Assembly (NCBI GenBank): GCA_030603445.1
Contig: JAUVXU010000007.1
Coordinates: forward strand, 1-64,000
Origin: Methanomicrobia archaeon
GTDB taxonomy: Archaea; Methanobacteriota_B; Thermococci; Methanofastidiosales; NM3
Reading direction: 5' to 3'
DNA: 64,000 nt
Part shown: positions 27,939 to 56,180 of the stretch, piece after piece
How the letters are laid out: each line of letters opens with the position of its first letter
How positions within the stretch are numbered: the stretch's first letter is position 1
Translations under genes and position numbers: made by a program
The notes under the pieces: generated by a model
The model's database searches: none
Told to the model about the DNA's origin: nothing
The model's input: only the letters and a program-made list of their open reading frames with translations

Positions 27939-28376
27939 ATGTTGAATAGTATACACTCCTGCATGAAATGCGGAACATGTACTGGTTCTTGCCCTTCGGG
28001 TAGGGTCGTATCTTTTAGGACTCGCCAGCTTGTGGAGGAGCATTGTCTTGGTGAGATAGATCTTGATGACATTGCAATATGGTACTGTACTACTTGTTAT
28101 AATTGTATGGAGCGGTGCCCACGAAATATTGATATAACTGATGATATTTTGCGTATTCGTGAGGAAGCATATAAACAAGGAAAAGTCTTACCTCAACACA
28201 AAGATATAATGTCTTATATTTATAGAACGGGGCATGCAGTGCCCATTAATGAGGAGATAAAAGACCTTCGTGAATCATTAGGTTTATCTCGTATTCCGCC
28301 TACGACGCATAAATTCGAGGAAGCGCTCGGAATTGTCAGACTGTTGTTAGAAGAGGGGGGCTTTAATGACAAATGA
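27939..28376 (+). CDS. hdrC: Heterodisulfide reductase subunit C-like (locus 1)
   Basis: 145 residues with two [4Fe-4S] motifs: C-M-K-C-G-T-C-T-G-S-C-P near residue 8 and C-T-T-C-Y-N-C-M-E-R-C-P near 50, the HdrC pattern. HdrC carries electrons between HdrA and HdrB. The ATG has ggtgga upstream. It overlaps the HdrB start by 11 bases and begins the six-gene locus hdrC-hdrB-hdrA-mvhD-frhB-like-fdhA-like. Whether the true acceptor is a heterodisulfide is not known. Confidence 0.92.
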   Translation: MLNSIHSCMKCGTCTGSCPSGRVVSFRTRQLVEEHCLGEIDLDDIAIWYCTTCYNCMERCPRNIDITDDILRIREEAYKQGKVLPQHKDIMSYIYRTGHAVPINEEIKDLRESLGLSRIPPTTHKFEEALGIVRLLLEEGGFNDK

Positions 28377-29181
28377 TGAATTTGCTTTTTTTCTAGGATG
28401 TTTAATTCCAAACAGGTTACCTGCGATCGAAAAAGCTTCACGTCTTGTTTGTGATAAGCTTGGTATTCGTCTATATGATATGGATGGGGCATCATGCTGC
28501 CCTGCGCCAGGCGTGATGAAGTCATTTGATAAGAATTTATGGTTAAAACTTGCTGCACGAAACCTCCAAATTAGTGAAAAAATGGGATATGATCTAATTA
28601 CCATGTGCAATGGTTGTTATGGCACCTTAAAGGACGCTTCAATGGAGCTAAAAGAAGATAAAGAGAAGTTATCTGATGTTAAGGAAACTCTAAATCGATT
28701 GGGGTTGTCTTTTGAAAATGTGCCTAATGTATATCATCTCGTAGAGTACCTATACTTTGACTATGGGCTAGATAGGATAAGAGAGACTATTACAAACAAA
28801 TTAAATCTTAATGTAGCAGTACATTATGGATGTCATTTGCTAAAACCAGTAAAGTATAGGCGCAGCGAGAATTTTGAGGTACCACAATTCTTCGATGAAC
28901 TTGTTGAAATTACTGGTGCAAAAAGCATAAATTACCCAGAAAAAAGCACTTGCTGTGGCGCAGGTGGGGGCGTCCGCTCCGGAATGAAAGATGTTTCTCT
29001 TGAAATTGCTAAGAGAAAAGTTGCTTCGATTAAAGGAGCAGATTGTATTGTAACACCTTGTCCATTTTGTCATATGCAGTTAGAACAAGTCTCAAATATC
29101 CCTGTTTTGTATTATACACAACTTTTGGCACTGGCAATGGATATTCCAAAAGATGTTTTGGGATTGGAGGTGGAGCTATGA
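28366..29181 (+). CDS. hdrB: Heterodisulfide reductase subunit B-like (locus 1)
   Basis: 271 residues with two complete CCG domains: first F-L-G-C, S-C-C-P-A-P-G and M-C-N-G-C-Y-G; second H-Y-G-C-H, S-T-C-C-G-A-G-G-G and C-P-F-C-H. Each can bind the non-cubane [4Fe-4S] cluster at which HdrB reduces disulfides, so the catalytic subunit of this locus looks intact. The start lies inside hdrC and the end overlaps hdrA (ATGA), meaning tight translational coupling. Confidence 0.92.
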   Translation: MTNDEFAFFLGCLIPNRLPAIEKASRLVCDKLGIRLYDMDGASCCPAPGVMKSFDKNLWLKLAARNLQISEKMGYDLITMCNGCYGTLKDASMELKEDKEKLSDVKETLNRLGLSFENVPNVYHLVEYLYFDYGLDRIRETITNKLNLNVAVHYGCHLLKPVKYRRSENFEVPQFFDELVEITGAKSINYPEKSTCCGAGGGVRSGMKDVSLEIAKRKVASIKGADCIVTPCPFCHMQLEQVSNIPVLYYTQLLALAMDIPKDVLGLEVEL

Positions 29182-32171
29182 ACAAGACCGCGGCTGTTGT
29201 GGGAGCAGGAATATCTGGAATGCAGGCTGCCCTTAGCCTAGCAGAACGGGGTGTTAAAGTATATCTTATTGAAAAAACATCAAGTATTGGCGGCATTATG
29301 GCTCGTCTTGATAAGACAATGCCGACACTTGACTGTTCTATATGTATTCTTTCTCCATTCATGCTTGCAGTAGATAGGAATCCTATGATAGACATACTTA
29401 CCTTAACTGATATTATCGGCGCTGAAAAAAGCGATATTGGTTACAAGCTAACGTTGCGAAAACGTCCGCGCTATGTCGATATGGACAAGTGTACTGGATG
29501 TCGTGATTGTATGTCAAAGTGCCCAAAGAAGATAACGCTCGAACATGAGGAGCCGTTTGGGACTGTAAAGGCCATTCACTTTGATTTTGACCAGGCAATA
29601 CCTGCTGTGCCATATATAGATGCAGAGAACTGCCTTATGCTAATAAAGGGAACATGTGGCAACTGTGCCAAGTTTTGTGACAAAGATGCAATTGATTTTG
29701 AACAAAAGGAAGAAATTGTTCCCTTAGAAGTTAGTAGTGTTATTTTGGCCACCGGTGCCCGCCCATACATTCCGCTGGATCGTATGGAGTACGGCTATGG
29801 GAGATATAAGAATGTTATTACTGCCATGGAGCTTGAACGCCTGCTTTCTGCATCAGGCCCGACCGAGGGTAATGTAGTACGGGCAAGTGATGGTAAAGAA
29901 CCAAAGAATATAGCATTTATAAATTGTGTTGGTTCTAGGGATTTGAAAACAGGGCGAGGATACTGTTCAAAAGTATGTTGCATGTATGGGATTAAAGAGG
30001 CCCTTCTTGTAAAGGACCACGACCCGGGTGCAAATGTTACAATATTTTATATTGATATTCGTGCAAGCGGGAAAGGCTATGAGGAGTTTTTCCAAAATGC
30101 TAAGGATTCTATTCGCTTTGTGCGAGGCCGACCGGGTGAAATATTAGAACATGAGGGCAACGATTTATTAATTCGTTATGAGAATACGGAGACCCAGGAA
30201 GTTATTGAAGAATGTTTTGATATGGTTGTCCTAAATACGGCGCTTGTTCCCTGCGAGGAAACACAACAACTTTCTGAGATGTTTGATATTTCTGTAAATA
30301 ACTATGGTTTTTTCATGCCATCCAAAGACATTTCATGTCCGATTGATACAAAACAAGACAACGTATTTGTTGTTGGTGCTTGTCAGGGTCCAAATGATAT
30401 AACCGATTGCGTTTCACAATCAATAGGGGCTGTTTCAAAAACTTTCTCTATGAAAGGAGATATCAAACAAAAGGAGAAAAGGTCTTTGCCCGGGGCGTCA
30501 GGTAAAGATCCACGCATAGGAGTATTTGTTTGTCATTGTGGGAAAAATATAGGCAAGTATGTGGATGTGAAGGATGTTGTAGAGTATGCAAAAAAGCTCC
30601 CCGATGTTGTTTATGCGGAAGATTCGCTGTTCACCTGTTCAGATCAAGGTCAAAAATCAATTAAGGACACGATAAAAAAGGAAAAGCTAAATCGCGTCGT
30701 CGTTGCCGCATGTTCACCAAAAACACATGAAAACACATTTCAAGAGGCTCTGATTGAAGCAGGATTGAACCCGTATATGCTTGAAATGGCAAATATCAGA
30801 AATCAGTGCTCATGGGTGCACTCGAAACAATACGATTTGGCGACCCAGAAAACTAAAGATCTTGTTCGTATGTCTGTTGCAAAAGCCAGATTGCTAGAGC
30901 CATTGTATCAACGCGAAGTTGATGTAGTTCAGCATGTTGCTGTTATTGGCGGGGGATTTACCGGTATGGCTAGCGCGTTGGAAATGGCAAAAAATGGTTT
31001 TAGGGTCTCTCTTATCGAACGTGAGTCTAAGCTTGGGGGAAAAGCAAGCGTTACAAACAAACAAAAAGATGGCACTATTCCCGAGGAATTGGCGGAAATG
31101 ATGGCAAATCATCTAGAAGAGAGTAATAACATTTCCGTGTTCTTATCAAGCGAAGTTGAAAATGTCGAAGGGTTTGTTGGAGATTTTATACTAGACGTGT
31201 CAACTCCTAATGGTATTGAAAAGATAGAATGCGGCACAGTTATAATTGCTACTGGATTCGATTCTGCTGATGTAAAAAGCAGTGGTTACACAACTTCTGA
31301 AAGTGTAATTACCGATGAAAAGTTCAGTTCAATGGTTAATTGTGGCATGCTTGATGGGAAGAATTATGTCTTTATTTTATGTGTTGGCGCACGAAATGAA
31401 CAAAATCCATATTGTTCTAAGTTTTGTTGTATTTCTTCTCTTAATCATGTGCGGTGTCTGTTAGAGGATAAACCAGATGCAAATGTAACGGTTCTGTATC
31501 GTGACATAAGGGCGTATGGTTATCATGAGGATACATACAGGGAGGTATCAGAGAAAGGTGCTAACTTCATACGTTACAGCCCCGAGATGATGCCACATAT
31601 AGATATAGATAAAAAAGTAGTGGAAGTGTACGATACAACATCTTCCAAAACAAGGACTATAGAGTTTGATTACTGTGTGTTAGAACGAGGAGCCATACCT
31701 TCAAAAGGTACAACAAAATTACGTAAACTATTCAAAATGTCTGTTGTTTCATCTGGATTTTTTGCTGAAGCGCACCTCAAGCTCGCTCCTTTAGACACGG
31801 CACTTGATGGGGTCTTTATTGCAGGTAGCTGCCAGTATCCAAAAGGGATATCAGAGGCCATAACACAGGCAGTATCTGCTGCAGGAAGGGCATCTATAGC
31901 CATGGGGGGAGGTACGTATAGTGCAATTCCAATAACTGCATCAATTGATGAGAATAAGTGCATTGCTTGTAAATTATGTATGGATATGTGCCCATACAAG
32001 GCGCTGCAGATGTCAGAGAACGGAATACATATGGAAGTAATCACAGTTTCTTGTAAGGGGTGTGGCACTTGTGCAGCATTTTGCCCATCAAATGCAATAA
32101 CAATCTCAGGTTTTACTTACAAGCAAGAAAAAGAGAAGTTAAAGGCTATTTTTGAGGGGTCGATGGAATGA
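29178..32171 (+). CDS. hdrA: Double-length HdrA (two fused FAD modules)
   Basis: 997 residues from the ATG at 29178, which overlaps the hdrB stop; earlier in-frame ATGs lie inside hdrB. Module 1 (1-440): Rossmann G-A-G-I-S-G-M, the P-T-L-D-C-S-I-C pair at 53/56, and an inserted ferredoxin [12 protein letters not shown] near 105. Module 2 starts with the HdrA N-terminal domain (V-C-H-C-G-K-N near 453), a second Rossmann G-G-G-F-T-G-M near 590, and a C-terminal ferredoxin with [12 protein letters not shown] near 928 and C-K-G-C-G-T-C near 958. Module 2 lacks the P-T-L-D-C pair and the inserted ferredoxin. Ordinary HdrA is about 650 residues; fused HdrAA forms occur in BamE-like proteins. Probably the flavin hub for electron bifurcation. 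Confidence 0.9.
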
Positions 32172-32584
32172 GCTTTGAACCCAAGATATTGGCATTTTTG
32201 TGCAACTGGTGCTCGTATGGGGCAGCAGATATGGCAGGGACCTCCCGTTTGCAATACCCTTCCAATATTCGCATCATTCGATTCATGTGTAGTGGAAGGA
32301 TAGATCCAAATTTTGTAATTGAAGCATTCTTGCGCGGCGCTGACGGGGTGATGATAACTGGATGTCATATTGGCGACTGTCACTATATAGATGGAAATTA
32401 CAAGACTGTGCATCGTTATGAATTCCTTAAAGAATATCTTGACACACTTGGAATTGGCTCAGAGCGTCTTACATTAGAGTGGTGCTCTGCGGCAGAGGGG
32501 ATGAAATTCTCCCAAAAAGTTACCGAATTCACAGAACGTATTCGAAAACTTGGACCAAGCCCAATAAAAGGTGATGAGCAATGA
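32168..32584 (+). CDS. mvhD: MvhD-like [2Fe-2S] protein (locus 1)
   Basis: 138 residues, overlapping the hdrA stop (ATGA). The motif [12 protein letters not shown] and later F-M-C-S-G-R-I and [10 protein letters not shown] hold the [2Fe-2S] ligands of MvhD. In Mvh-Hdr and Fdh-Hdr complexes this subunit links the electron-donating module to HdrA, consistent with its place between hdrA and the F420/FDH-like genes here. Confidence 0.92.
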
Positions 32585-33738
32585 ATTCAAAATCATTTTG
32601 GGGTTGGTCATCAACTGAAGCATTGCGTGAGGGTGGTGAGTCAGGGGGATTTGTCACATCGTTTCTTGAAAGTATTGTGGGTAAGTACGACAATATACTA
32701 GCAGTACGCAAGACAGGCACCGTTTTTGAGGGGGCGGTCATGTCAATTGACAGTAAAGAGGATGCGATAAAGACGCAGGGCGCTTTGCATGCTGTATGTA
32801 TGGAGCTATCCCATTACATCAAGAAAGGAGAAAGGACCGCCATTGTCCTAAAACCATGTGATGCACGTGCGGTCATAGAGAATATGAAAAGGAATCATGT
32901 CGAACGCGAAAATGTGCTGTTGATAGGTTTAAATTGCGGTGGGACTCTGCCGCCAGTAGACACAATGAGATTTATTGACAATTATTTTGAATTGGCTCCA
33001 GAAGATATTGTAAAGGAAGAAATAGCTAAAGGAAAAATCATTTTTAAAACCACTTCTGGTAAAGAGTTTTGGAAAACCATCGATGAAATCGAGGAAGAAG
33101 GATTTGGCAGGCGTGAGAACTGCAGATACTGCGATGTTAAGATCCCTTCGATGTGCGATATAGCTTGTGGAAATTGGGGCACTCCAGCAGGAAAGAACAT
33201 CACATTTGTAGAAGTATTCACTGAAAATGGAAATAATGCGCTCGAACAGGCTGTTAGAGAAGGTTTCATTAATGTCGGGGAGCCTTCTGAGAAGATGATA
33301 GCCGTCCGATCAAAGATAAATGGCATCATGAAGAAGATGGCAGGTGGCTGGAATAAAAGAATAATTGGCCGTTTGCGAAATATGCCAAACGAGGAGCGCC
33401 TGGCATATATTAAAAATGTGCTATCTCCTTGTATCGCATGTTACGCATGCAGAAAGGCATGTCCAGTGTGCAAATGTGGCGATGATTGTAAATGCATGCA
33501 GATGGATCCTGACGATTCCCTCCCTATATCTATTTTTCATTCAATACGTTTGTTGCACCTTACAGAGTCATGCATAGGGTGTGGAAATTGTAGTGACGTC
33601 TGTCCTGTTGACATACCACTAGCACATTTGCATCAGCTTTTTGCTAGAAACTATGAGAAAAAGACAGGATATAAACCTGGGATGTCTATTGAGGACATAC
33701 CACCCTTATCTCGAGGTGATCTGCCTGAAGGTTATTGA
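32581..33738 (+). CDS. FrhB/FdhB-type F420-binding iron-sulfur subunit (locus 1)
   Basis: 385 residues. The front is a full FrhB domain: [10 protein letters not shown] at 20-29, [10 protein letters not shown], and C-R-Y-C-D ... C-D-I-A-C-G near 180, the pattern that binds FAD and docks F420. The C-terminal third adds two ferredoxin motifs, [12 protein letters not shown] and [12 protein letters not shown]. It would exchange electrons between F420 and the Hdr core. Start overlaps mvhD (ATGA). The paralogue in locus 3 is much shorter. Confidence 0.85.
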
Positions 33739-35155
33739 TTCACATTGTCCTGGATGTAGCATACTATGCGGTGTTCATATAATCGATGATGATGAAGGGA
33801 TTGATATAGAATTTATGAAAAGTTGTACTATTAATAGCGGAAAGCTATGTAAGTTTGGAATAGATCTTCCAAAATTTTATTCTTCTCCAAAACAGGAACC
33901 TTATGTCTATGGGAAAAAGGTTTCATATGACGATGCAATAGCGGCAACAGCAGATGCACTAAAATCATGGGAAAATACTCGTGGCATGAGTGAAGGAGTA
34001 ATATTGTGTACAGGCGATGCAACATGTGAAGAATTGTTGGTATTGGGCAAGCTTGCTAAAAAAGCAGATATGGTCTGTGCAACAGGTCTTGGGAAGATAG
34101 TTAGCACGATAGGAGGTACGACACTACTTCGCAAGTCATCTAATTTTAACATAATAGAATATGCAAAATCGATTATTCTTGTAGATATAGACCCCTATTA
34201 TCAGTATCCATTAATTGCCAGAAAGCTACAAATTGCTAAATCCAACGGCGCCCATATTATTTCAATTGGAACAGAAAAGCCCCATATAGACCATATTGTG
34301 GATGAGGTAAAACTCATACATCCCTCCAAAATGCAAAAGGAACTTGAATCTTTGTGCGAATCGGTTTCCTCAGAAACACTGTTTATAACATCATTAGGAA
34401 TATATTCAGATCTTTCTACTATAGCAGCGATAAACAATAATTGTACAAAACAATATTCTCGCATAATGTATATGAAAGACTTTGCAAATACTGAAGGGTC
34501 TTTAGTACTTGGTATTGATACCAAGAATAATAGTATTGAGGATATCATAGAAGGCATGGAATCAGGAAAGATAACAGCTCTTTTTTTGATAGAATCTCCC
34601 CTTTATGAGAGTTATATAGACAATGAACGTTTTAGGAATGCTTGTCAGAATCTACAACACCTAATAATCTTGCAATCACGTGCTACATCTGTTCCAAACA
34701 ACGCAATAATGCTACCATTACCCTTGTTTTATGAACGAAAGGGCACTCTTATAAACGTTTGTGGTAGATTTCTTTCCCTCAAGGGAGACAAGGAAGGTGT
34801 AGCAGGGGTAAGCAATGACATATTAGAAAAATTAGGTGCTAAGAAACTTAGCTTTGAAACGCTTACACAAGAAGCAGTGGATCGTTATAGTAAGTGGAAG
34901 TCATTGATACCAGAACGTAGCACTGTAGAGGTCCCAAAATCCGCAGTAGATAGTGGTCCGTGCCACAAGTATATTTCTAATCCTTTCTTAGTTAGAGGTT
35001 TGCCATATACGCCTTGCAAGAGGGTTGGCAAAGGACTATATCCTAAGGCAAAGAAAAAGGAACGATACGCAGTGTTACAAGATATCGCTGAGAATGTTGT
35101 TTTATCGTATGAAAAGGACACAAGGTTTAGAAAGGTATTAGATATTTATGAATAA
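33716..35155 (+). CDS. Molybdopterin-oxidoreductase-fold protein without catalytic Cys/Sec (NuoG/FdhA-like)
   Basis: 479 residues from GTG 33716; the ribosome-binding-site-like gaggtga overlaps this codon and could instead serve a rare CTG start at 33725, while the ATG at 33641 would overlap the previous gene by 98 bases. The [4Fe-4S] site is intact (Cys11, 14, 18, 45), followed by molybdopterin-domain blocks such as G-E-V-type A-T-G-L-G-K-I and F-A-N-T-E-G-S-L-V-L-G-I, as in NuoG. Where FdhA has H-C-A-R-L-C/U-H, no Cys or Sec is present, and the C-terminal pterin domain is short. It cannot be a formate dehydrogenase by this sequence; an electron-conducting scaffold is more likely. Confidence 0.72.
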   Translation: MICLKVIDSHCPGCSILCGVHIIDDDEGIDIEFMKSCTINSGKLCKFGIDLPKFYSSPKQEPYVYGKKVSYDDAIAATADALKSWENTRGMSEGVILCTGDATCEELLVLGKLAKKADMVCATGLGKIVSTIGGTTLLRKSSNFNIIEYAKSIILVDIDPYYQYPLIARKLQIAKSNGAHIISIGTEKPHIDHIVDEVKLIHPSKMQKELESLCESVSSETLFITSLGIYSDLSTIAAINNNCTKQYSRIMYMKDFANTEGSLVLGIDTKNNSIEDIIEGMESGKITALFLIESPLYESYIDNERFRNACQNLQHLIILQSRATSVPNNAIMLPLPLFYERKGTLINVCGRFLSLKGDKEGVAGVSNDILEKLGAKKLSFETLTQEAVDRYSKWKSLIPERSTVEVPKSAVDSGPCHKYISNPFLVRGLPYTPCKRVGKGLYPKAKKKERYAVLQDIAENVVLSYEKDTRFRKVLDIYE

Positions 35156-35182
35156 CCTAATATCTCATTATATTTTTTTTAA

Positions 35183-35374
35183 TCATTCAACATTTGATAT
35201 CTTTAGCTCTGCTTCTTTGAGTAGTGTGTTGCAATGATCGATTATTTTTTTTCCAAGTTCGTAGTTATCCATAGCATCATTAAGTGAAATATCTCCTATA
35301 TCAAGTTCTTTTACTATCTTTTCTAGCTCTTGGATACTATCCTCAAAACTTAATGTTTCAATATTACTGCTCAT
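35183..35374 (-). CDS. xseB: Exonuclease VII small subunit
   Basis: 63 residues. S-F-E-D-S-I-Q-E-L-E-K-I-V-K-E-L and S-L-N-D-A-M-D-N-Y-E-L-G-K form the two-helix XseB hairpin. It overlaps the xseA end by 11 bases. ExoVII degrades single-stranded DNA from both ends and is mainly bacterial; here both subunits are present and adjacent, so the enzyme should assemble. Confidence 0.9.
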   Translation of the reverse strand: MSSNIETLSFEDSIQELEKIVKELDIGDISLNDAMDNYELGKKIIDHCNTLLKEAELKISNVE

Positions 35375-36596
35375 TTTTGTTGTCTCCTTTTCTTATTTCT
35401 GCCTGCAACGTACCATCCTTTAGTTGCAGTGTTACTATATCACCCAAATGCACAGATTTCACTGATCTTATCAATTTTCCTTCTTTATATACTAACGTAT
35501 AGCCACGCTCCAACACGGCAAGTGGGTTAATAGATTCGAGCACTTCTATTTTTTTAGATATCAGATTGGACATCTTTTCAAGTGTGCGCTTATATGTTGT
35601 GTCAAGATCGCGGGAAGTATAAACTAATGCTTGCTGTTTTTGTTCAAGCATTATGCGGGGGCTCTTTCTTTCTAACTTTAGGTCCAATGCTTCTAGCGTC
35701 TGTTTGCTTGAGGCCATATAGTATATTGTGGCCTTCTTGAGCTGTTCAAACATGCGCTTCATTTTGGCCATTTCATCATAAACATTAACAGTGGCCTTCT
35801 CTGCAGCTTGGGTAGGCGTTGTTGCTACAACGTCTGAAACGAACTCTGCTATGGTGTGGTCTACTTCGTGTCCCACTCCACATATCACCGGCTTCTTTGT
35901 TTTAGCTATTGCTCTAGCAACTATCTCTTCATTAAAAGGCCATAGTTCTTCTATGGATCCCCCGCCTCGTGCTAGAATAATTGTGTCAATTGAAGGGATG
36001 TCATCTGCTAACATTAGAGAGTGTGCAATATCTTTTTCAGCTCCTTGCCCCTGAACGCGGGTGGGTATTACAATAAGCTCAACGAAAGGATTGCGTCTAA
36101 AGAATTGGTCTATGATGTCTTGTAGTGCAGCACCGTCTTTTGATGTAACTATTGCAATTTTTTTAGGAAATGGGGTTATACTCTTTTTTTCGGAAATATC
36201 AAAGAGGCCTTCTTGGCTTAGCTTGGATTTAAGGGTCAAGAATTGGGCATATAGTGCTCCTTTTCCTTTGTCAATTACATCTTTTACAATGCAGCTAATT
36301 TGTCCATAAGGGGCATAGAAGTTTATCTTGCCTCTAACGATTATAGTTTTTCCTTCCAAAGGGAGGGATGTACATTTACTCACGTTATTTGAGAACAAGG
36401 CACATTTTATCCTTGCGTGTTCATCTTTTAAATCAAAATACATATTCCCGTGGGAATGTGACACGCGAAATATCTCTCCAACTACATAGACGTCTTTAAG
36501 CATTTCTTGATTATCAATAGCTATTGAAACCTCTCTACAAAGTTCCTTTACAGTTATTGGGTGTTCTGGGTCCATTTGTATAAAAAGCATTTTCAT
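35364..36596 (-). CDS. xseA: Exonuclease VII large subunit
   Basis: 410 residues. N-terminal OB fold with V-V-G-E-I-F-R-V-S-H-S-H-G-N-M-Y-F-D-L-K; the catalytic core includes I-A-I-V-T-S-K-D-G-A-A, I-I-L-A-R-G-G-G-S-I-E-E-L-W-P-F-N and G-V-G-H-E-V-D-H-T-I, all diagnostic of XseA; a long coiled-coil region for XseB binding follows, and a C-terminal E-R-G-Y-T-L-V beta segment closes it. Complete length. Its presence in an archaeon suggests an old transfer from bacteria (inference). Confidence 0.95.
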   Translation of the reverse strand: MKMLFIQMDPEHPITVKELCREVSIAIDNQEMLKDVYVVGEIFRVSHSHGNMYFDLKDEHARIKCALFSNNVSKCTSLPLEGKTIIVRGKINFYAPYGQISCIVKDVIDKGKGALYAQFLTLKSKLSQEGLFDISEKKSITPFPKKIAIVTSKDGAALQDIIDQFFRRNPFVELIVIPTRVQGQGAEKDIAHSLMLADDIPSIDTIILARGGGSIEELWPFNEEIVARAIAKTKKPVICGVGHEVDHTIAEFVSDVVATTPTQAAEKATVNVYDEMAKMKRMFEQLKKATIYYMASSKQTLEALDLKLERKSPRIMLEQKQQALVYTSRDLDTTYKRTLEKMSNLISKKIEVLESINPLAVLERGYTLVYKEGKLIRSVKSVHLGDIVTLQLKDGTLQAEIRKGDNKNEQ

Positions 36597-36619
36597 TTTA
36601 TTTAAAGATTATGAACAGA

Positions 36620-37036: not shown

Positions 37037-37129
37037 TTTTTCACCTAACAATTATGCCTTTGGGCGCATGGTATTTGTTTATATGTTTAATAAAATAAAT
37101 TCTTGAAAATATAATTTGGAAGAAATGTG

Positions 37130-37145
37130 TTGTTTATATAAACAA
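37130..37145. promoter_or_regulatory. 16-base perfect palindrome containing a TATA-like core
   Basis: ttgtttatataaacaa is its own reverse complement. It lies about 95 bases upstream of the minus-strand nuclease gene. Another AT-rich TATA-like stretch (atttatatattt) starts near 37159, heading toward the tRNA. It could be an operator or a bidirectional promoter core; there is no plus-strand protein gene close by. Confidence 0.35.
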
Positions 37146-37272
37146 TTATCTGACATGCAATTTATATATTTAGTTAGAGAGAGCGATTAAAAGTAAAGAT
37201 ATACGTGTTATATTCTCCACGTTTTGTAATAATTTGCGGGATTTGTCTTTTTTTTATTATATTGTGAAAATA

Positions 37273-37360: not shown

Positions 37361-37395
37361 AAAACACTTTGATAATTTGGTGTTCAGTCTGTATG

Positions 37396-37413: not shown

Positions 37414-37500
37414 TTTTTTGATTTGTGCATAAAAAAGAGACCATTTTATTTCATATATCTTATTATGGGCACCATACATAAGGCCGCCCTATCAGCCCCT

Positions 37501-45474: not shown

Positions 45475-45479
45475 TATCG

Positions 45480-46802: not shown

Positions 46803-46803
46803 T

Positions 46804-46836
46804 CTTTTTTTTTCTTTTTTATTTTTTAGGAGGTTT
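46804..46836 (+). promoter_or_regulatory. Poly-T tracts plus aggaggt between HdrD-like and ferredoxin genes
   Basis: Three T-runs (nine, six and six) separated by single bases fill the 38-base gap, followed by aggaggt, a strong ribosome-binding site for the ferredoxin. Archaeal RNA polymerase terminates at such T-tracts without hairpins, so partial termination could give the first two genes a different RNA level from the last two. Confidence 0.45.
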
Positions 46837-46840
46837 AAAT

Positions 46841-47176
46841 ATGACTATTCAAGTTGACCCACAAAAATGCATTAACTGTGGTGCCTGTGAATTAGGCTGT
46901 AGCTTTTACAGGGATGAAGTTTTCACCACGATGTCTTCATCTGTTATGATGTACCGAGAGGAAAAGAGAAATTACTTTGGACTTATGCTAAAAAGAGAAG
47001 ATGATATGATTCTCGGACGACCCGAAGGCGTTGAAATACAGAAGGAAGGAGAGGCTTCCGACAGCGATGCAGGAGCATCAGCGAAACCTATTCTCCTAAG
47101 GGAACCTTGTGATGAGTGCAAAGACGCATTATGTGTGCGTTTCTGCCCAACAGGCTGTTTGATAGAGGTGGACTAA
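46841..47176 (+). CDS. Two-cluster ferredoxin of the AOR/DMSO-reductase partner type
   Basis: 111 residues. C-I-N-C-G-A-C-E-L-G-C near residue 10 and C-D-E-C-K-D-A-L-C-V-R-F-C-P near 91 each supply ligands of a [4Fe-4S] cluster; the extra residues between them are like those of the DMSO-reductase B or AOR-associated (WOR-S, BamC) electron-transfer proteins. It stops exactly one base before the AOR-like gene and must be its electron partner. It begins after aggaggt. Confidence 0.85.
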   Translation: MTIQVDPQKCINCGACELGCSFYRDEVFTTMSSSVMMYREEKRNYFGLMLKREDDMILGRPEGVEIQKEGEASDSDAGASAKPILLREPCDECKDALCVRFCPTGCLIEVD

Positions 47177-48409: not shown

Positions 48410-48411
48410 AT

Positions 48412-48438
48412 GGGACCATATTTTTGGTTCCTTTTTTT
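48412..48438 (+). terminator. Hairpin plus T-run after locus 2
   Basis: gggacca and tggttcc form a stem with a six-base loop, followed directly by seven T residues, two bases after the stop codon. It should end the 44.0-48.4 kb transcript. Confidence 0.65.
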
Positions 48439-48459
48439 ATCTTTTTTGTGGAGTGGAGG

Positions 48460-49632
48460 GTGAAAAGCATCTCTTTGTCATTAAAGATAGGGATATTCAT
48501 AGGCAAAGGCGCATCCTATTCATGGATTTGGTTCGTAAAGACTTTTGATTTACTAGATTTCAATGAAATATACTTCATTGATGAAAGTGATGTGCTAAAC
48601 GATGCTTTAACAAATTTTGATTGTTTCATTTTGCCTGGTGGAGATCCATTTCAAGTGGCCGAAGGCCTCGGCGAGATAGGTCTTACGAAAATTCGATCTT
48701 TTATAGAGTGTGGTGGAACATATATTGGGGTTTGTGCAGGTGCTTATTTATCAATAATGTTTTGCAACAATCCAATGCCTTGGTTGAATCTTGTTGATAT
48801 GCCAATCAATAACTATTCTTTGAATCCTCCCGAAGCGATACGGATGAAGTACAAGTATCTTGTGCCTTATCGCGATGGGTTTGTGTATCATCCTGTTCGG
48901 GGCCCTTTAGAAGTGTCATGCAATGGACAGTCTTTTAAAGCGCCTTTATTTGGGGGACCACCAATGCTGGCTCCAAAAGAGAATCAATTAGCGGAGTATA
49001 AGGGCTTTGATGACAAAACGTTGTACTTAACTAATGAAGAAGAAGCAAAAAGAACTATGTTAGGGTATGCAGCCGGAGTGAAGGTTTCAGTTGGGAAAGG
49101 CAATTTATTTCTTTTTGGCCCCCATTTTGAACATCCTAACTACCCAGAGGCAAACAAATTCTTATTTTCGCTTTTATGCACTCTGACACCATATGCAAGA
49201 GGACCTCCACGGCATGAAGTTTCTATTCTTGAGGGCAATGAATTCAAACGTTGGATAAAGAGTATAAAAAGAGAGCTTTCTTCAGCAAGAGTCATTGCTA
49301 ATGGTATGACAAATCTGAGGTGGAAGATCGGGGAGAAGATATGGGAAGATGAAAAAATCATATACTTCTTGAATGAAATTTGGAAGACTGTTAAGATCTT
49401 GCAGAAATACGGTGCACTACCCGTGGAGCGGCCTCAAGAGCTGGAAGAAAATGCAAGGAAAATACACTCCCTCCTTGCCGAGATTCATGTTTTATCCAAA
49501 GAAGGGAAAAGTACTAATATCCAGGCAAGCTATCTAATTGAACACACCAAAAAATTATCAAAAGGACTATTTGAATCATATTTTAATATAAAAAGAAATG
49601 AGTGGTGGACTAATGGAAGAAAAGACAGTTGA
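48460..49632 (+). CDS. BPL_N-type class I glutamine amidotransferase-like protein
   Basis: 390 residues from a GTG; ggaggg immediately precedes it, and an in-frame TTG at 48475 is possible too. N-terminal half is an amidotransferase fold: L-P-G-G-D-P-F-Q and the nucleophile elbow G-V-C-A-G-A-Y-L near 75, then F-G-P-H-F-E-H-P, the histidine and glutamate positions. It resembles the biotin-protein-ligase N-terminal family, whose substrate is unknown. The C-terminal 150 residues are helical and specific to this protein. It overlaps hdrC of locus 3 by 20 bases, so it is probably co-transcribed with it. Confidence 0.8.
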   Translation: MKSISLSLKIGIFIGKGASYSWIWFVKTFDLLDFNEIYFIDESDVLNDALTNFDCFILPGGDPFQVAEGLGEIGLTKIRSFIECGGTYIGVCAGAYLSIMFCNNPMPWLNLVDMPINNYSLNPPEAIRMKYKYLVPYRDGFVYHPVRGPLEVSCNGQSFKAPLFGGPPMLAPKENQLAEYKGFDDKTLYLTNEEEAKRTMLGYAAGVKVSVGKGNLFLFGPHFEHPNYPEANKFLFSLLCTLTPYARGPPRHEVSILEGNEFKRWIKSIKRELSSARVIANGMTNLRWKIGEKIWEDEKIIYFLNEIWKTVKILQKYGALPVERPQELEENARKIHSLLAEIHVLSKEGKSTNIQASYLIEHTKKLSKGLFESYFNIKRNEWWTNGRKDS

Positions 49633-50101
49633 AAGCATTGTGAATGAGGGGCGCGCGTATGCTTGCATACAATGCGGCAAGTGTACCGGGTCATGTCCTT
49701 CAGGAAGGGAATGTGGTCTAAGGACGCGAAAAGTCATACATATGGCCAGGCTTGGTATGGACATATATAAAACGGAAGAGCTATGGGACTGTACTACATG
49801 TTATACATGTCAGGAACGATGCCCAAAAGACGTTAAGATAACAGATATTATAATAGAACTGCGAAATATGGCAGTTAAGAATAGTTTCTATCCGACAATG
49901 GCCGAGGTACCAAAAATAATTATCCAAAATCTATATTCTACTGGAAATGGACAACCGTTGTCCCCAGAAGTATCCAAGATACGCTCTATCATAGGCTTGA
50001 ATAAGGAACCATTGGATGCTTCCACAAATAAGGATACACTTAAAAAATTCCAGAAACTTCTTGATGGATTGCCACTCATGCAATGGGGGGAAACACAATG
50101 A
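49613..50101 (+). CDS. hdrC: Heterodisulfide reductase subunit C-like (locus 3)
   Basis: 162 residues from the ATG at 49613, with gtggtgg upstream; an ATG fifteen bases earlier is inside that sequence. Two cluster motifs are intact: C-I-Q-C-G-K-C-T-G-S-C-P and C-T-T-C-Y-T-C-Q-E-R-C-P. Start lies within the BPL_N gene, end overlaps hdrB (ATGA). First subunit of the second Hdr-formate dehydrogenase locus. Confidence 0.92.
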   Translation: MEEKTVESIVNEGRAYACIQCGKCTGSCPSGRECGLRTRKVIHMARLGMDIYKTEELWDCTTCYTCQERCPKDVKITDIIIELRNMAVKNSFYPTMAEVPKIIIQNLYSTGNGQPLSPEVSKIRSIIGLNKEPLDASTNKDTLKKFQKLLDGLPLMQWGETQ

Positions 50102-50973
50102 AATATGCATTTTTCCCTGGCTGTATCGCTAAGAATGTCTATCCTGGAATAGAGAAGGCCACACGATTAGTATCTGCTAAGCTTGGCATTGACTTAGTTG
50201 ATTATGAATATTCCTGTTGTCCACCACCAGGTGTTATTGCCTGTTATGATAAGGACTCGTGGTTAACACTTGGCGCACGCAATCTTTCATTATCAGAAAA
50301 AGATAATCATGATATCATGACAATTTGTGCAGGATGTTATGGTACACTGCATAACGTTTGGCATACGCTAAAACAAGACCAAGATAAAATGGAATTTGTG
50401 AACGAGCATCTTTCCCGTATTGATACAGAATATAAGGGGAATATTAGGCCTGTTCATTTTGTTGATTTACTTTCAAAAATGAGAGATGAAATCAAGCAGA
50501 ATAAGGAGATTGATTTAGATTTTAGAGTGGCTGTGCATTATGGCTGCCACTATCTTAAACCCTCTGATGTAACAGGGGAAAACAGCGAGGCGCCTAAAAT
50601 TCTCGATGAAATAGTGTCGCTTCTTGGATGCGAGAGCGTTCCTTTCAAGGACCGTCTTACGTGCTGTGGTGCAGGAGGGGGCGTAATGAGCGGGGAACCA
50701 GATCTCTCTCTTAAGATAATAGATCGTAAATTGAAGAATATTGAAAAAGCAGATGTGGATTGTATAATAAATATTTGTTCTTTTTGCCACATGAACTTTG
50801 ACCAGAGCCAGAAGAAGTTGCATGCATATGATATACCTGTGCTTCATCTCAACCAATTACTTGGTCTTGCTTTTGGATTCAAGCATAAGCATCTGGGCCT
50901 TCATACGAATCTGGTGTCGACTCGTGACATAGTAAAGAAGGTTAAGGGCGCAAAAAGGGAGTCGATGAAATGA
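50098..50973 (+). CDS. hdrB: Heterodisulfide reductase subunit B-like (locus 3)
   Basis: 291 residues. Both CCG domains are complete: F-P-G-C, S-C-C-P-P-P-G, C-A-G-C-Y-G and H-Y-G-C-H, T-C-C-G-A-G-G-G, C-S-F-C-H. It therefore has the two non-cubane clusters needed for disulfide reduction. Coupled by four-base overlaps to hdrC and hdrA. Confidence 0.93.
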   Translation: MKYAFFPGCIAKNVYPGIEKATRLVSAKLGIDLVDYEYSCCPPPGVIACYDKDSWLTLGARNLSLSEKDNHDIMTICAGCYGTLHNVWHTLKQDQDKMEFVNEHLSRIDTEYKGNIRPVHFVDLLSKMRDEIKQNKEIDLDFRVAVHYGCHYLKPSDVTGENSEAPKILDEIVSLLGCESVPFKDRLTCCGAGGGVMSGEPDLSLKIIDRKLKNIEKADVDCIINICSFCHMNFDQSQKKLHAYDIPVLHLNQLLGLAFGFKHKHLGLHTNLVSTRDIVKKVKGAKRESMK

Positions 50974-52919
50974 AAGTAGGCGTGTACATTTGTCATTGTG
51001 GGGTTAATATTGCAAATATGGTTGATATCCCAAAAGTTGTTGAGGCGATAAGTGGCCAAACTAATGTTGCTGTTTGCAAAGAATACCAGTACATGTGTTC
51101 TGATCCTGGCCAAAACATGATAAGAAAGGATATTGAGGATATGGGGTTAGATCGTGTGGTAGTTGCCGCATGTTCTCCTCGTATGCATGAACCTACGTTT
51201 AGGGCGACAGTAGCTGACGCTGGCATGAACCCCTATTGTTTTGAGATGGCTAACATCCGTGAGCAGTGTTCATGGGTGCACGAGGATAAAGAAGAAGCTA
51301 CGCAAAAAGCTATAGACCTTGTAAAGAGCTCTGTTGCGAGAGCATCACTTCTTGAGCCACTACAAAGCACCGAGATACCTGTGACCCACAGCGCGCTTGT
51401 CATAGGTGGCGGAATTGCAGGCATACAGGCTGCACTTGATATTGCTAATTCAGGATTTAAGACATACCTTGTAGAGAAGGAACCATCTATTGGTGGACGC
51501 ATGGCACAATTTGATAAGACATTTCCAACACTGGACTGTGCCGCATGCATCCTGACACCAAAAATGGTGGATGTTGCCCGTCATCCTAACATAGATCTTT
51601 TGACCTATAGCGAGGTTGAGCATATCGATGGGTCTATTGGCAACTTCCATGTGCAAATTAAGAAGAAGCCACGATACGTTGATCCTGACCTGTGCACAGG
51701 ATGTGGCCTATGTGCGGAAGCATGCCGCTTGAAAGGGCGCATCTCTTCAGAGTTTGATATGGGTATTGGAAAGCGTGGTGCAATATACGTTCCTTTTCCA
51801 CAGGCAGTGCCTTTGCTATATACCATAGATCCTGAGAATTGTTTGTTATTAAAACACGGCAAATGCGGAAAATCACCAAAATGCGAAGATATATGTGATC
51901 CTGGAGCCATTCGTTTTGACCAGGAAGAGGAACATATAGATATTGATGTGGGTGCAATCGTTGTTGCCACAGGTTATAATGAATTCTCTCCTGTTGTAAA
52001 AGAGGAGTATGGATACGGTAAGTTCAAGAACGTTATGACTGGGCTTGAACTAGAGCGTATATTCTCCCCATCAGGACCAACAGGCGGTAATCCAATAATC
52101 AATGGCACCGAACCAAAGAATATCGTTTTTATCTCTTGTGTAGGTTCACGCGACAAACGCATAGGGAATCCTTACTGTTCACGTGTTTGTTGCATGTATA
52201 TTGCAAAACAGGCGCATTTGCTAAAGGAGAAGATCCCTGATGCCAATATCACAGTAATGTATACAGATATGCGGGCTTTTGGTAAAGGCTATGAAGAGTT
52301 CTACGAACGTGTACAAAAAGAAGGCATAAGATACAGAAGGGGAAATGCTGCTGAGGTGTATGAAGAGGATGACCTGCTTTTTGTGCGTGCAGAGGATACA
52401 CTTCTTGGTGAACCTTATGAACTGCCTGCTGATTTGGTTGTCTTGGGAACAGGCCTTGTGCCTTCCCCTGATGCAGATTCTATAGGACAAATGTTGCACT
52501 TATCACGAAGTGCTGACAAGTTCTTTTTAGAGGCGCATCCAAAACTCCGCCCAGTTGATACTGTCATTGATGGTGTTTTCTTGGCAGGTGCGGCTCAAGG
52601 GCCAAAGGATATCCCTGACTCGGTCGCACAGGCATCAGGTGCTGCTTCACATGTTGTCAATCTATTAGTTAAAGAGAAGATACATGCCGAACCTATCATC
52701 GCTGAGATAAATGAGGATGCCTGCGTAGGATGTAAGACTTGCATTGTACTTTGCCCGTATGAGGCCCCCTTGTATGACGATGAGAAGAAAGTCGTGACAA
52801 TCAATCGTGCTGTCTGCAAAGGATGTGGAAGCTGTGCTGCAGCATGCCCTTCTGGTTCTATAAAGATGAATCATTTCAAGAACGAACAGATAGTTGCACA
52901 GATACTTGAGGTGATCTAA
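50970..52919 (+). CDS. hdrA: HdrA flavoprotein, normal length (locus 3)
   Basis: 649 residues, standard for HdrA. N-terminal domain V-Y-I-C-H-C-G-V-N; the FAD Rossmann G-G-G-I-A-G-I-Q-A near 145; F-P-T-L-D-C-A-A-C-I-L; inserted ferredoxin C-T-G-C-G-L-C-A-E-A-C and a C-terminal ferredoxin C-V-G-C-K-T-C-I-V-L-C-P and C-K-G-C-G-S-C-A-A-A-C-P. All cluster and flavin motifs are intact, as required for flavin-based bifurcation. It contrasts with the fused HdrA of locus 1. Confidence 0.95.
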   Translation: MKVGVYICHCGVNIANMVDIPKVVEAISGQTNVAVCKEYQYMCSDPGQNMIRKDIEDMGLDRVVVAACSPRMHEPTFRATVADAGMNPYCFEMANIREQCSWVHEDKEEATQKAIDLVKSSVARASLLEPLQSTEIPVTHSALVIGGGIAGIQAALDIANSGFKTYLVEKEPSIGGRMAQFDKTFPTLDCAACILTPKMVDVARHPNIDLLTYSEVEHIDGSIGNFHVQIKKKPRYVDPDLCTGCGLCAEACRLKGRISSEFDMGIGKRGAIYVPFPQAVPLLYTIDPENCLLLKHGKCGKSPKCEDICDPGAIRFDQEEEHIDIDVGAIVVATGYNEFSPVVKEEYGYGKFKNVMTGLELERIFSPSGPTGGNPIINGTEPKNIVFISCVGSRDKRIGNPYCSRVCCMYIAKQAHLLKEKIPDANITVMYTDMRAFGKGYEEFYERVQKEGIRYRRGNAAEVYEEDDLLFVRAEDTLLGEPYELPADLVVLGTGLVPSPDADSIGQMLHLSRSADKFFLEAHPKLRPVDTVIDGVFLAGAAQGPKDIPDSVAQASGAASHVVNLLVKEKIHAEPIIAEINEDACVGCKTCIVLCPYEAPLYDDEKKVVTINRAVCKGCGSCAAACPSGSIKMNHFKNEQIVAQILEVI

Positions 52920-53351
52920 ATGACAGAGGAATTTAAACCTAAAATTGTTGGTTTTTTATGTAACTGGTGTTGTTACGCAGGTGCAGATATGGCAGGAACA
53001 TCACGCATGAAGTATCCTTCGAATATCCGTATTATACGCGTAATGTGTTCTTCGCGCATAAATACTGAGATGATAATAAAAGCATTTCAAACAGGTGCGG
53101 ACGCCGTATTTATCGGCGGATGCCATTTTGGGGACTGCCATTACGTAGATGGAAATTATCGCACTAAAAAACGCATCGATGTATTGAAGCGTCTGCTTTC
53201 TCACATGGGTATAGAGCAGGAACGCCTGCGCCTGGAATGGGTCTCGGCTGCAGAAGGCGAGAAGTTTTCCAAGACTATGGCTGAATTTACCGATACGATA
53301 ACATCCTTAGGCCCGAGTCCATTAAGGGAAATAAAAGAGGAGGCGATTTAG
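52920..53351 (+). CDS. mvhD: MvhD-like [2Fe-2S] protein (locus 3)
   Basis: 143 residues, starting on the base after the hdrA stop. F-L-C-N-W-C-C-Y-A-G-A-D, V-M-C-S-S-R-I and G-G-C-H-F-G-D-C-H-Y give the [2Fe-2S] ligands. It connects HdrA to the formate dehydrogenase module that follows directly. Confidence 0.93.
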   Translation: MTEEFKPKIVGFLCNWCCYAGADMAGTSRMKYPSNIRIIRVMCSSRINTEMIIKAFQTGADAVFIGGCHFGDCHYVDGNYRTKKRIDVLKRLLSHMGIEQERLRLEWVSAAEGEKFSKTMAEFTDTITSLGPSPLREIKEEAI

Positions 53352-54128
53352 ATGGAGCCTGAACTTAGAGATTACGTCGGAGAATTACTAGATTCAGGGA
53401 CCGTTGCCGGAGTTTTGGCACTAAAGGATGAATTAGGTGCAGTTAAACCATACTTGTTCACAAAAAATAATGAGATTGGCGATCTGGTTCTAACTTCAAA
53501 ATACCCATTGGCATCTGTTATGTCAATGTTACAAAAGGAAGATCCATCAATCAAACTTGCTATAGTATGCCGAGGTTGCGATGAAAGGGCACTTATAGAG
53601 TTGGCAAAGAGAAATCAGATCAATTTGGATAATATTGTCTTTGTCGGCATACCGTGTGATGAGGAAATGGCAGATAAATGCAACTGTTTACAACCATACC
53701 CTAAAGAGATAGTAACTGGTGAGAAACTTAGTAATTGGGTCCCTAAAAACAATTATGAGGATTTCAAAAACATGAGCACCGAAGAAAAGCTGATATTTTG
53801 GAAGGGGCAACTTGAGAAATGTAATAAGTGTTATGGTTGCAGAAATGCATGCCCGCTATGTTTTTGCAGTGATTGTGAACTTGAGAACGCTTTGTGGGTA
53901 AAACATGGCCGTTTGCCTCCAGAGTTTCCTATATATCACGTGATTAGAGCATTTCATCTGGCAGGAAAATGTGTTGGGTGTGGGGAATGTGAAAATGCAT
54001 GTCCCGTAGGCATACCTTTGATGACACTAAACCACCTCTTAAGGGAAGATATAAAAGATTTATTTGGGTATATGACAGGGCAGGATATCGAAGATGAGAA
54101 TCCAATAAACACAAAGGAGGAATACTAA
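53352..54128 (+). CDS. Shortened FrhB-like iron-sulfur protein (locus 3)
   Basis: 258 residues, 127 fewer than its locus-1 paralogue. The first 115 residues keep part of the FrhB N-terminal fold (V-C-R-G-C-D-E-R-A-L-I, V-G-I-P-C-D) but the S-G-G loop and the whole FrhB C-terminal F420 domain are missing. The Fe-S tail is complete: C-N-K-C-Y-G-C-R-N-A-C-P and C-V-G-C-G-E-C-E-N-A-C-P. It probably wires formate dehydrogenase to MvhD/HdrA and may not bind F420. Starts exactly after mvhD and stops exactly before fdhA. Confidence 0.82.
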   Translation: MEPELRDYVGELLDSGTVAGVLALKDELGAVKPYLFTKNNEIGDLVLTSKYPLASVMSMLQKEDPSIKLAIVCRGCDERALIELAKRNQINLDNIVFVGIPCDEEMADKCNCLQPYPKEIVTGEKLSNWVPKNNYEDFKNMSTEEKLIFWKGQLEKCNKCYGCRNACPLCFCSDCELENALWVKHGRLPPEFPIYHVIRAFHLAGKCVGCGECENACPVGIPLMTLNHLLREDIKDLFGYMTGQDIEDENPINTKEEY

Positions 54129-56180
54129 ATGAAGTATGACAATATTCTTACGACTTGCCCATATTGTGGATGTGGTTGCAAATATTATATTCAAGTCATC
54201 AACGGAGTTGCAAAAGGTGTTATGCCATGTAAGGAAGACCCCGTTAGTGAGGGCAAATTATGTATTAAAGGATGGAACGTTGTTGACTTTGTATATAGTG
54301 AAGGTAGACTTACAAAACCTCTTATTAAGGAAAATGGTAAATTTCGTGAAGCGTCATGGGATGAGGCATATAATTTAATTGTTTCTAAATTTAAGAAGAT
54401 AAAGGAGCAGCATGGTCCACAGGCATTTGGCCTGTTATCTTCTGCCAAGACGACTAACGAAGAGAACTACCTCATGCAGAAGTTTGCGCGCAGCATAATT
54501 GTTACCAATAATGTTGATCACTGTGCTCGCTTATGTCATGCATCTACGGTTGCAGGTCTTGCAGCAGCATTCGGGAGCGGGGCAATGACTAATAGCATAC
54601 CTGAATTTGAAGATGCCGACTGTTTCTTGATAACAGGGTCAAATACAACAGAGCAACATCCGCTTATTGGTTCACGCATCCTTCGTGCAAAGGAGAGGGG
54701 AGCAAAGATAATTCTTGTAGATCCCAGATTGATACAATTAGCAAAGTTTGCTGATATTCACTTAAGACAAAAGCCAGGAACCGATGTGGCATGGCTCAAT
54801 GGACTCATGTACGTCATAATAAAAGATGGTTTAGTCGATGAGGAGTTTGTGAAAAATCGCACCGAAAACTACGAGAAATTAAAAAAAGAAGTGATGAACT
54901 ACCCACCTGAAAAGGTGGAGGAGATAACAGGTGTCCCAAAAGAAGATATAATCTCTGCGGCCCATATATTTGGCAATGCCAAGACTGCTTCTATAATTTA
55001 TAGCATGGGTATCACTCAACACACAACAGGAGTTGATAACGTGAAGTCTTGCGCAAATCTTGCCATGATAACAGGAAATATGGGCAAGGCATGTACAGGT
55101 GTAAACCCACTAAGGGGACAAAACAATGTACAAGGCGCATGCGATCTTGGGGCACTTCCAAATGTGTTTCCTGGCTACCAGGCAGTGGCAAATGGAGAAT
55201 TTAGGGAAAAATTCGAGAAAGCCTGGAAAATGGATGATAAAATTCCAGAAAACGTTGGGTTAACTGTAGTAGAGATGACAAACGAAGCCCATGCTGGAAA
55301 TATCAAGTGCCTATATATTATGGGCGAAAATCCAATGGTATCAGATCCGGATATTAATCATGTTAAAGAGAGTTTGGAATCGTTGGATTTTCTTGTGGTG
55401 CAGGACATATTCCTCACCGAGACCGCCGAGCTTGCCGATGTAGTCCTTCCTGGAACATCGTTCCTTGAGAAGGATGGCACATTTACCGGAACTGATCGCA
55501 GGGTTCAAAGGGTGCGCAAGGCTATTGAACCTTTAGGAGAATCCAAACCAGATTGGCTTATTATATCCGAACTTGCTAGCAGGATGGGATCATCAGCCTT
55601 TGAATATAACTCGCCAAAGGAAATACAAGACGAGATTGCTTCATTAACGCCGCTTTACGGGGGGATATCCTATGAGCGACTAGATGATCTCGGGTATTTA
55701 CAATGGCCTTGCTTAGACAAAGATCATAAAGGGACCGTATTTTTACACAAAGGTAAATTTACCAGAGGCCTTGGATGTTTCTTTCCTATAACGTATAAAC
55801 CACCAGCTGAGCTTCCAGACAAAGAATACCCTTTTACTTTGACAACCGGGCGAATATTGTTCCATTTTCATACTGGAACGATGACGCGCTGTGTGCCAAA
55901 GCTTGACAAAGAGGTGCCAACTGGATACGTTGAGATACATCCTGTCGATGCTGATAGGCTAGGAATCAAAGATGGTGAAATTATAAAAGTAAGCACAAGA
56001 AGAGGAACAATTAATATTCCCGCATACATCACAAGAAAAGTTCCAGAAAAAATAGTGTTTATACCGTTCCACTTCAAAGAATGTGCTGCAAATATTTTAA
56101 CAAATCCTGCACTAGACCCAATAGCAAAGATACCTGAATTAAAAGTCTGTGCCTGTAAAGTAGAGTCAATAGGTGAATAA
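54129..56180 (+). CDS. fdhA: Formate dehydrogenase alpha subunit, cysteine type
   Basis: 683 residues, the full catalytic subunit. [4Fe-4S] motif C-P-Y-C-G-C-G-C ... C (Cys10, 13, 17, 45); the molybdenum ligand is Cys136 in V-D-H-C-A-R-L-C-H, with His137, so it uses Cys and not selenocysteine; R-G-Q-N-N-V-Q-G-A-C-D near 335 binds formate/pterin; the C-terminal molydopterin domain has T-T-G-R-I-L-F-H-F-H-T-G-T-M-T. Molybdenum or tungsten cannot be told apart. mobA and fdhD directly downstream support a molybdopterin enzyme. Electrons should pass through the two Fe-S proteins to HdrA. Confidence 0.95.
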   Translation: MKYDNILTTCPYCGCGCKYYIQVINGVAKGVMPCKEDPVSEGKLCIKGWNVVDFVYSEGRLTKPLIKENGKFREASWDEAYNLIVSKFKKIKEQHGPQAFGLLSSAKTTNEENYLMQKFARSIIVTNNVDHCARLCHASTVAGLAAAFGSGAMTNSIPEFEDADCFLITGSNTTEQHPLIGSRILRAKERGAKIILVDPRLIQLAKFADIHLRQKPGTDVAWLNGLMYVIIKDGLVDEEFVKNRTENYEKLKKEVMNYPPEKVEEITGVPKEDIISAAHIFGNAKTASIIYSMGITQHTTGVDNVKSCANLAMITGNMGKACTGVNPLRGQNNVQGACDLGALPNVFPGYQAVANGEFREKFEKAWKMDDKIPENVGLTVVEMTNEAHAGNIKCLYIMGENPMVSDPDINHVKESLESLDFLVVQDIFLTETAELADVVLPGTSFLEKDGTFTGTDRRVQRVRKAIEPLGESKPDWLIISELASRMGSSAFEYNSPKEIQDEIASLTPLYGGISYERLDDLGYLQWPCLDKDHKGTVFLHKGKFTRGLGCFFPITYKPPAELPDKEYPFTLTTGRILFHFHTGTMTRCVPKLDKEVPTGYVEIHPVDADRLGIKDGEIIKVSTRRGTINIPAYITRKVPEKIVFIPFHFKECAANILTNPALDPIAKIPELKVCACKVESIGE

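Follow-up and report, generated by a model that had tools for sequence, protein, structure and literature searches.

Does an archaeon that encodes two operons of the same gene order, each joining a heterodisulfide reductase (Hdr) core to homologs of formate dehydrogenase subunits, possess one enzyme in two copies or two enzymes with different electron donors? This question is raised by the first 64,000 nucleotides (the window) of contig JAUVXU010000007.1 (assembly GCA_030603445.1; C40 in our numbering) from a Methanomicrobia archaeon, whose genome of 1.62 Mb is 96% complete and was placed in the NM3 family of the Methanofastidiosales. Locus 1 (27939-35155) and locus 3 (49613-56180), both on the plus strand, comprise hdrC-hdrB-hdrA-mvhD-fdhB-fdhA, in the gene order given by a preliminary description of the window, and all six genes are intact and tightly packed or overlapping. 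We consider it probable that they encode two separate, dedicated bifurcating Hdr complexes of different lineages, locus 3 being specific for formate and locus 1 for coenzyme F420.

Two subunits carry this reading. At neither locus does a catalytic FdhA occur together with an FdhB that binds flavin adenine dinucleotide (FAD) and F420, and each locus has its own hdrCBA-mvhD set, in agreement with the two specialized complexes proposed initially. Both operons are found in five of five NM3-family genomes examined, with protein identities of 43-89%, and such recurrence indicates that they are not a product of chance. Close relatives of the host are SpSt-1146, archaeon isolate NM3, and two bins of Candidatus Methanofastidiosia archaeon. 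Among 110 other genomes of the class, none has the short FdhB or the locus-1 FdhA-like protein; other matches there are to generic FdhA (at most 41 bits) or partial matches to iron-sulfur (Fe-S) regions. The genes of the two operons are as follows.

27939..28376, plus strand: locus 1 hdrC, 145 amino acids (TIGR03290 CoB_CoM_SS_C, 182 bits; cut-off 160)
28366..29181, plus strand: locus 1 hdrB, 271 amino acids (TIGR03288 CoB_CoM_SS_B, 345.8 bits, just above the cut-off)
29178..32171, plus strand: locus 1 hdrA, type II, about 997 amino acids, two tandem thioredoxin-reductase-like domains
32168..32584, plus strand: locus 1 mvhD (PF02662, 186 bits)
32581..33738, plus strand: locus 1 fdhB/elpB-like gene, 385 amino acids, complete FAD/F420 domain and C-terminal Fe-S domain
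33716..35155, plus strand: locus 1 fdhA-like (ElpA-like) gene, about 479 amino acids, without a molybdenum/tungsten (Mo/W) ligand
49613..50101, plus strand: locus 3 hdrC, 79.6% identical to the gene at the same position in a relative
50098..50973, plus strand: locus 3 hdrB, 78.8% identical to that of the relative
50970..52919, plus strand: locus 3 hdrA, type I, 649 amino acids (HdrA2 model, 881 bits, in one stretch, 2-647)
52920..53351, plus strand: locus 3 mvhD (PF02662, 187 bits)
53352..54128, plus strand: locus 3 truncated fdhB, 258 amino acids, FAD/F420 part deleted, 15 Cys invariant across the family
54129..56180, plus strand: locus 3 fdhA, 683 amino acids, full Cys-type formate dehydrogenase alpha subunit

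Locus 3 Encodes a Complete Formate Dehydrogenase Subunit

FdhA of locus 3 scores 891 bits with the formate dehydrogenase alpha model TIGR01591, 225 bits above the curated cut-off of 666, and matches chain 9t1s_L with 849 bits over residues 1-681. The Fe4S4 motif and the MopB and Molydop_binding domains are all there, and Cys136-His137 and Arg329 are invariant in the five genomes, which bears out the earlier assignment as a complete Cys-type enzyme. For these residues we assume the roles that the Cys/Sec-His pair and the distal Arg have in FdhH of Escherichia coli. Its best matches among solved structures are genuine formate dehydrogenases, FdhF of the hydrogen-dependent carbon dioxide reductase among them. 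Three further genes adjoin locus 3 in all five genomes.

56188..57009, plus strand: membrane protein directly after fdhA, without a Pfam match
57004..57558, minus strand: mobA-like gene, presumably for a molybdopterin guanylyltransferase
57565..58311, minus strand: fdhD, sulfur-insertion factor for formate dehydrogenase (PF02634 FdhD-NarQ, 140 bits)

The position of the membrane protein makes it a candidate for formate entry. That FdhA acts on another substrate, or works in the reductase direction, we judge to be unlikely, given the distance to the curated cut-off, the kinship with true formate dehydrogenases, and the adjoining fdhD. Compatible with such an alternative are the lack of a member of the known formate transporter family in the genome, the fact that direction cannot be read from sequence, and the caution of Chadwick et al., who regard the substrate of Hdr-linked FdhA homologs in anaerobic methanotrophic archaea (ANME) as unknown (PMC9012536).

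The Short FdhB of Locus 3 Lacks the Flavin Site but Keeps Cluster Ligands

The FdhB of locus 3 gives no FrhB_FdhB match in Pfam and aligns with residues 93-131 and 269-382 only of FdhB from M. hungatei, the comparison with methanogen FdhB that had been suggested at the outset; about 137 central residues and the FAD-binding N-terminus are missing. Seven full-length and 36 truncated FdhB, 31 of the latter from Chloroflexi, were aligned, three sequences of solved chains being taken as search-matched segments. All seven full-length proteins have the FAD-helix motif [E/S]xxGG and the GSLH loop, and none of the 36 truncated ones has either. In FrhB, the FAD pyrophosphate is bound at the N-terminal helix, the isoalloxazine ring lies near a conserved loop, and Cys104, 134, 192, and 195 ligate a cluster (PMC3591093); these positions can be mapped onto the kept and lost parts of the short FdhB. 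All four cluster Cys have equivalents in the full-length proteins. In every truncated protein the first, second, and fourth are retained and the third is lost, and a new Cys occurs two residues past the fourth ligand (CxC), giving C76, C102, C110, and C112 at locus 3. Eleven C-terminal Cys are likewise kept in 36 of 36. C73 had been considered as a fifth cluster ligand, as it was invariant in the first eight sequences, and was dropped when it proved variable in the larger set.

In a structure model, the N-terminal 115 residues of the short FdhB superimpose on 8rvu_E with a Z score of 10.4 and a root-mean-square deviation of 2.5 over 112 residues, a comparison that covers mainly residues 1-127. 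The statement that this protein had lost its F420 domain is thus correct for the FAD/F420 part and too broad for the domain as a whole, since the N-terminal part still has the FrhB fold with four Cys equivalent or nearly equivalent to the ligands of the FAD-proximal cluster. Most likely, the flavin has been removed and the neighboring Fe-S cluster, whose binding is predicted from the conserved Cys, has been kept. We found no description of FAD loss with a ligand shift in FdhB in the portions of the literature on related systems that were accessible, which is not proof of novelty.

Locus 1 Combines a Predicted F420 Arm With an FdhA Homolog Lacking Catalytic Residues

FdhB of locus 1 matches FrhB_FdhB_C (105.8 bits) and FrhB_FdhB_N, and its closest solved chains are 8rvu_E (1e-80), 9t1s_M, and 7bkb_E (1e-71), nearly over the full length. 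The Cys of the FAD-proximal cluster (93/119/181/184) and the GG helix motif are present in four of four locus-1 sequences, as expected for the complete FrhB/F420 subunit first noticed here.

The adjoining FdhA-like protein, which starts with a GTG at 33716 like its relatives, has a single domain match (Molybdopterin, 48 bits), and a Pfam search did not detect the Molydop_binding domain (PF01568) that binds the cofactor at the C-terminus. In a profile alignment it is 21% identical to FdhA of locus 3, with a gap at the column of the catalytic Cys136, which confirms the suspected lack of a catalytic Cys/Sec; the catalytic His and Arg are absent as well. Among the five orthologs the region of the missing Cys is not conserved, and the four N-terminal Fe-S Cys are invariant. 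Identity among these orthologs is 43-49%, as compared to 63-89% for their operon partners and 78-80% for FdhA of locus 3, and this faster evolution fits a scaffold without an active site.

HdrA of locus 1 is a single chain that matches HdrA residues 138-565, then 2-230, and then 325-640. Pyr_redox_2 is found twice in it, and its orthologs have 992-997 residues.

Each Donor Arm Has Known Counterparts

The nearest counterpart of locus 1 is Elp-Hdr of Methanothermobacter marburgensis, an F420-only complex published in Nature in 2025 with a cryo-electron microscopy structure (PDB 8rvu) and measured F420H2-dependent activity, whose ElpA, a shortened FdhA, carries no molybdopterin (PMC12350162). Like locus 1 it joins an FAD-bearing FdhB homolog, an MvhD homolog, and a molybdopterin-free FdhA homolog for electron transfer from F420H2 to HdrABC, and among solved chains its ElpB comes closest to the locus-1 FdhB. 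It differs in that ElpA has about 340 amino acids and matches the locus-1 protein weakly (8rvu_D, 33 bits in a profile search), in that HdrA of M. marburgensis is single-domain and not tandem type II, and in that no Fmd/Fwd was seen in our host. A second counterpart, type II HdrA-HdrBC-MvhD-FdhB with a non-catalytic Molybdop protein, was reported in 2025 from ANME-2/3, Methanolobus, and Methanosarcina (PMC12054007). Judging from its description, it resembles locus 1 in gene content, tandem HdrA, and a non-catalytic MopB beside FdhB; it was reported from Methanosarcinia-type archaea, whereas locus 1 belongs to Methanofastidiosales and accompanies a formate-only unit.

For locus 3, the counterpart is HdrBCA-MvhD-FdhBA, annotated in Chloroflexi DscP3 and Desulfobacula toluolica (PMC5736913). 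Type I HdrA, MvhD, a short Fe-S FdhB, and a full FdhA occur there in the same order, and the Chloroflexi proteins analyzed have the same deletion and the same 15 Cys. However, the Chloroflexi FdhA, like that of DscP3, has selenocysteine (TGA) where locus 3 has Cys136, and fdhA is followed by FocA instead of the unrelated membrane protein. A formate-to-Hdr route in a methanogen has also been proposed for Methanothrix (MCON_3277-83, fdhA-hdrABC-ferredoxin), where "ferredoxins" take the place of FdhB (PMC7382037). The Fdh-Hdr-Fmd complex of M. hungatei (PDB 7bkb) resembles both loci in its FdhA-FdhB-MvhD-HdrA arm of homologous subunits, but it accepts formate and F420 in one complex, whereas the window separates these functions into two. 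The preliminary description had called such a split new, which does not hold for its parts, as these reports already cover each arm type. We regard as new the stable association of locus 1 with locus 3, an archaeal FAD-free FdhB, and the way in which this protein would preserve its cluster.

In other families of the order (L018, L020, L017), a protein of 666-682 amino acids has Fe-S and ferredoxin-NADP reductase (FNR)-like parts, and in the first two of these genomes it adjoins an FdhA. We take this protein to be linked to NAD(P)H, and by our own reading the layout is a different formate wiring in sister families.

Origin of the Two Loci

Subunit exchange would produce particles in which two Hdr halves form a heterodimer with one formate and one F420 arm, linking formate, F420, ferredoxin, and disulfide. 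An Hdr complex consists of two heterohexamers whose donor arms are mobile (PMC12350162), and MvhD is 63% identical between the loci. Mixed particles are nevertheless very improbable, as the HdrA types differ, each operon is self-sufficient, and identity between the loci is 45% for HdrB and 36% for HdrC, as compared to 63-80% with their own orthologs; we found no evidence for the shared Hdr cores or exchanged subunits that had been entertained before.

When genomes were scanned for the short FdhB, matches came from four contigs of the NM3 family and three of Chloroflexi. In the Chloroflexi, the short fdhB follows mvhD and, in L060 and L062, precedes an fdhA whose reading frame is interrupted by a TGA precisely where Cys136 would be encoded, by position a selenocysteine codon. 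Strong matches were listed for 36 of 396 genomes of the Anaerolineae class, and of 30 Chloroflexi loci, 27 have mvhD and 25 have fdhA beside the short fdhB. In the FdhB tree, short FdhB from NM3 and Chloroflexi form one clade of single origin, apart from full-length FdhB (support 100/100), within which NM3 and Chloroflexi each form one group (96% bootstrap), so that the direction of transfer cannot be read from the tree. The deletion and the CxC ligand are common to the Chloroflexi clade, and therefore the truncation predates the host genome. HdrA of locus 3 shows 50% identity to its Chloroflexi counterpart. The HdrB and HdrC encoded with it belong to the methanogen type and are distant from those of Chloroflexi (27% and 37% identity), and at most part of the operon can have travelled.

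The sequences thus indicate that loci 1 and 3 derive from different lineages of Hdr modules. The complementary losses originally envisaged, by which duplication of an operon for a bifunctional Fdh-Hdr was followed by loss of one function from each copy, would explain the same gene order and the complementary defects but are very improbable, given the differing HdrA types, the distance between the two FdhA homologs, and an FdhB tree that is the opposite of a sister grouping of the loci, with the short FdhB among Chloroflexi proteins (96-100% support).

Proposed Electron Paths

By analogy with homologous structures, on which we rely for assembly, cofactors, substrates, and direction, FdhA of locus 3 would oxidize formate at a Cys-ligated Mo/W-bis(molybdopterin guanine dinucleotide) site. 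Electrons would pass from the FdhA cluster through those of the FAD-free FdhB to the [2Fe-2S] cluster of MvhD and the FAD of type I HdrA, where they would bifurcate to ferredoxin and, via HdrB, to the heterodisulfide of coenzymes M and B (CoM-S-S-CoB). At locus 1, F420H2 would be oxidized (or F420 reduced) at the FAD of FdhB, and electrons would reach ferredoxin and HdrB through the FdhB clusters, MvhD, and the tandem type II HdrA, with the FdhA homolog as a cofactor-free scaffold bearing one Fe-S cluster. In the genome search, none of the Hdr clusters had a hydrogenase large subunit as a neighbor, and H2 would therefore enter locus 1 through Frh, encoded on another contig, and F420H2. Either complex may run in reverse.

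Several points weigh against two dedicated complexes. Both are known here from their genes. No PF01226 (FocA/FdhC) match occurs in the host genome, although control methanogens were also unmatched and this says little about other transporters; entry of formate through this family was dropped as an explanation. The single-sequence model of the locus-1 FdhA-like protein has a predicted local distance difference test (pLDDT) value of 37 and is unusable, and the model of the short FdhB is confident for residues 1-110 only, its cluster geometry being unreadable. Finally, absence of F420 does not account for the loss of the site, because Chloroflexi with the short FdhB have CofD; a restriction of the short FdhB to hosts without F420 was rejected, three Chloroflexi hosts having CofD above the cut-off.

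Host Metabolism and Neighboring Genes

NM3 ("Acherontia") is one of the lineages predicted to be methyl-reducing methanogens in which the tetrahydromethanopterin branch is partly or wholly missing (PMC9723798). McrA/mcr and CofD were found in the host genome, along with an operon for the F420-reducing hydrogenase (Frh) and a CofE-like gene on contig C21 and a membrane hydrogenase-like operon on contig C5. As PF00384 is represented in the genome by the two MopB proteins of loci 1 and 3 only, FwdB/FmdB was not seen. On C21 (stretch coordinates 8405-9949), an FrhG-FrhB fusion of 514 amino acids adjoins FrhA and an FrhD-like gene. Contig C47 (30693) encodes a 648-residue protein in which an FrhB domain precedes a part resembling sulfite reductase, presumably an F420-dependent sulfite reductase. 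A third Hdr supercluster, without Fdh, is located on contig C7 (stretch coordinates 7609-18176). It encodes type II HdrA (1008 amino acids), MvhD, HdrD-like (386), HdrA (759), an HdrD-like protein of 657 residues with four CCG stretches, HdrC, and HdrB, and resembles ANME multi-HdrA clusters.

Between the two Hdr loci, 44044-49632 encodes a GlcD-like FAD oxidase, an HdrD-like protein with CCG domains, a small ferredoxin, a BPL_N-domain protein, and a 410-residue protein with the N-terminal domain of aldehyde ferredoxin oxidoreductase (AFOR_N) and no AFOR_C, possibly a second "enzyme" reduced to its cofactor domain. This cluster adjoins locus 3 in one relative (G015) too. Elsewhere in the window, a type II restriction-modification-like gene (1616-4335) lies in two overlapping frames, split at 3403-3448. 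A gene like that for the Exonuclease VII large subunit (35364-36596) we take to be xseA, of an enzyme that is usually bacterial, here in an archaeal host. Agmatinase-like, eIF5A-like, and PdaD-like genes lie side by side at 61538-63440 and presumably form a polyamine/hypusine-type set.

Implications for the NM3 Family

The short FdhB illustrates that a flavin may be deleted and the adjacent Fe-S cluster retained by shifting one Cys ligand, and it would offer a natural cut-out for testing how electrons move from FdhA on to HdrA. We regard it as distinctly unlikely that the family operates either two parallel donor tracks or mixed particles exchanging electrons between formate and F420 arms, so that formate would feed electrons directly into methyl-reducing methanogenesis with no part played by F420. 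If the reading of two dedicated complexes is true, formate and F420H2 (hence H2) would enter methane formation through separate bifurcating enzymes, in a manner different from the bifunctional Fdh-Hdr complex studied in methanogens, and formate-dependent methyl-reducing methanogenesis would be predicted for the uncultured NM3 family.

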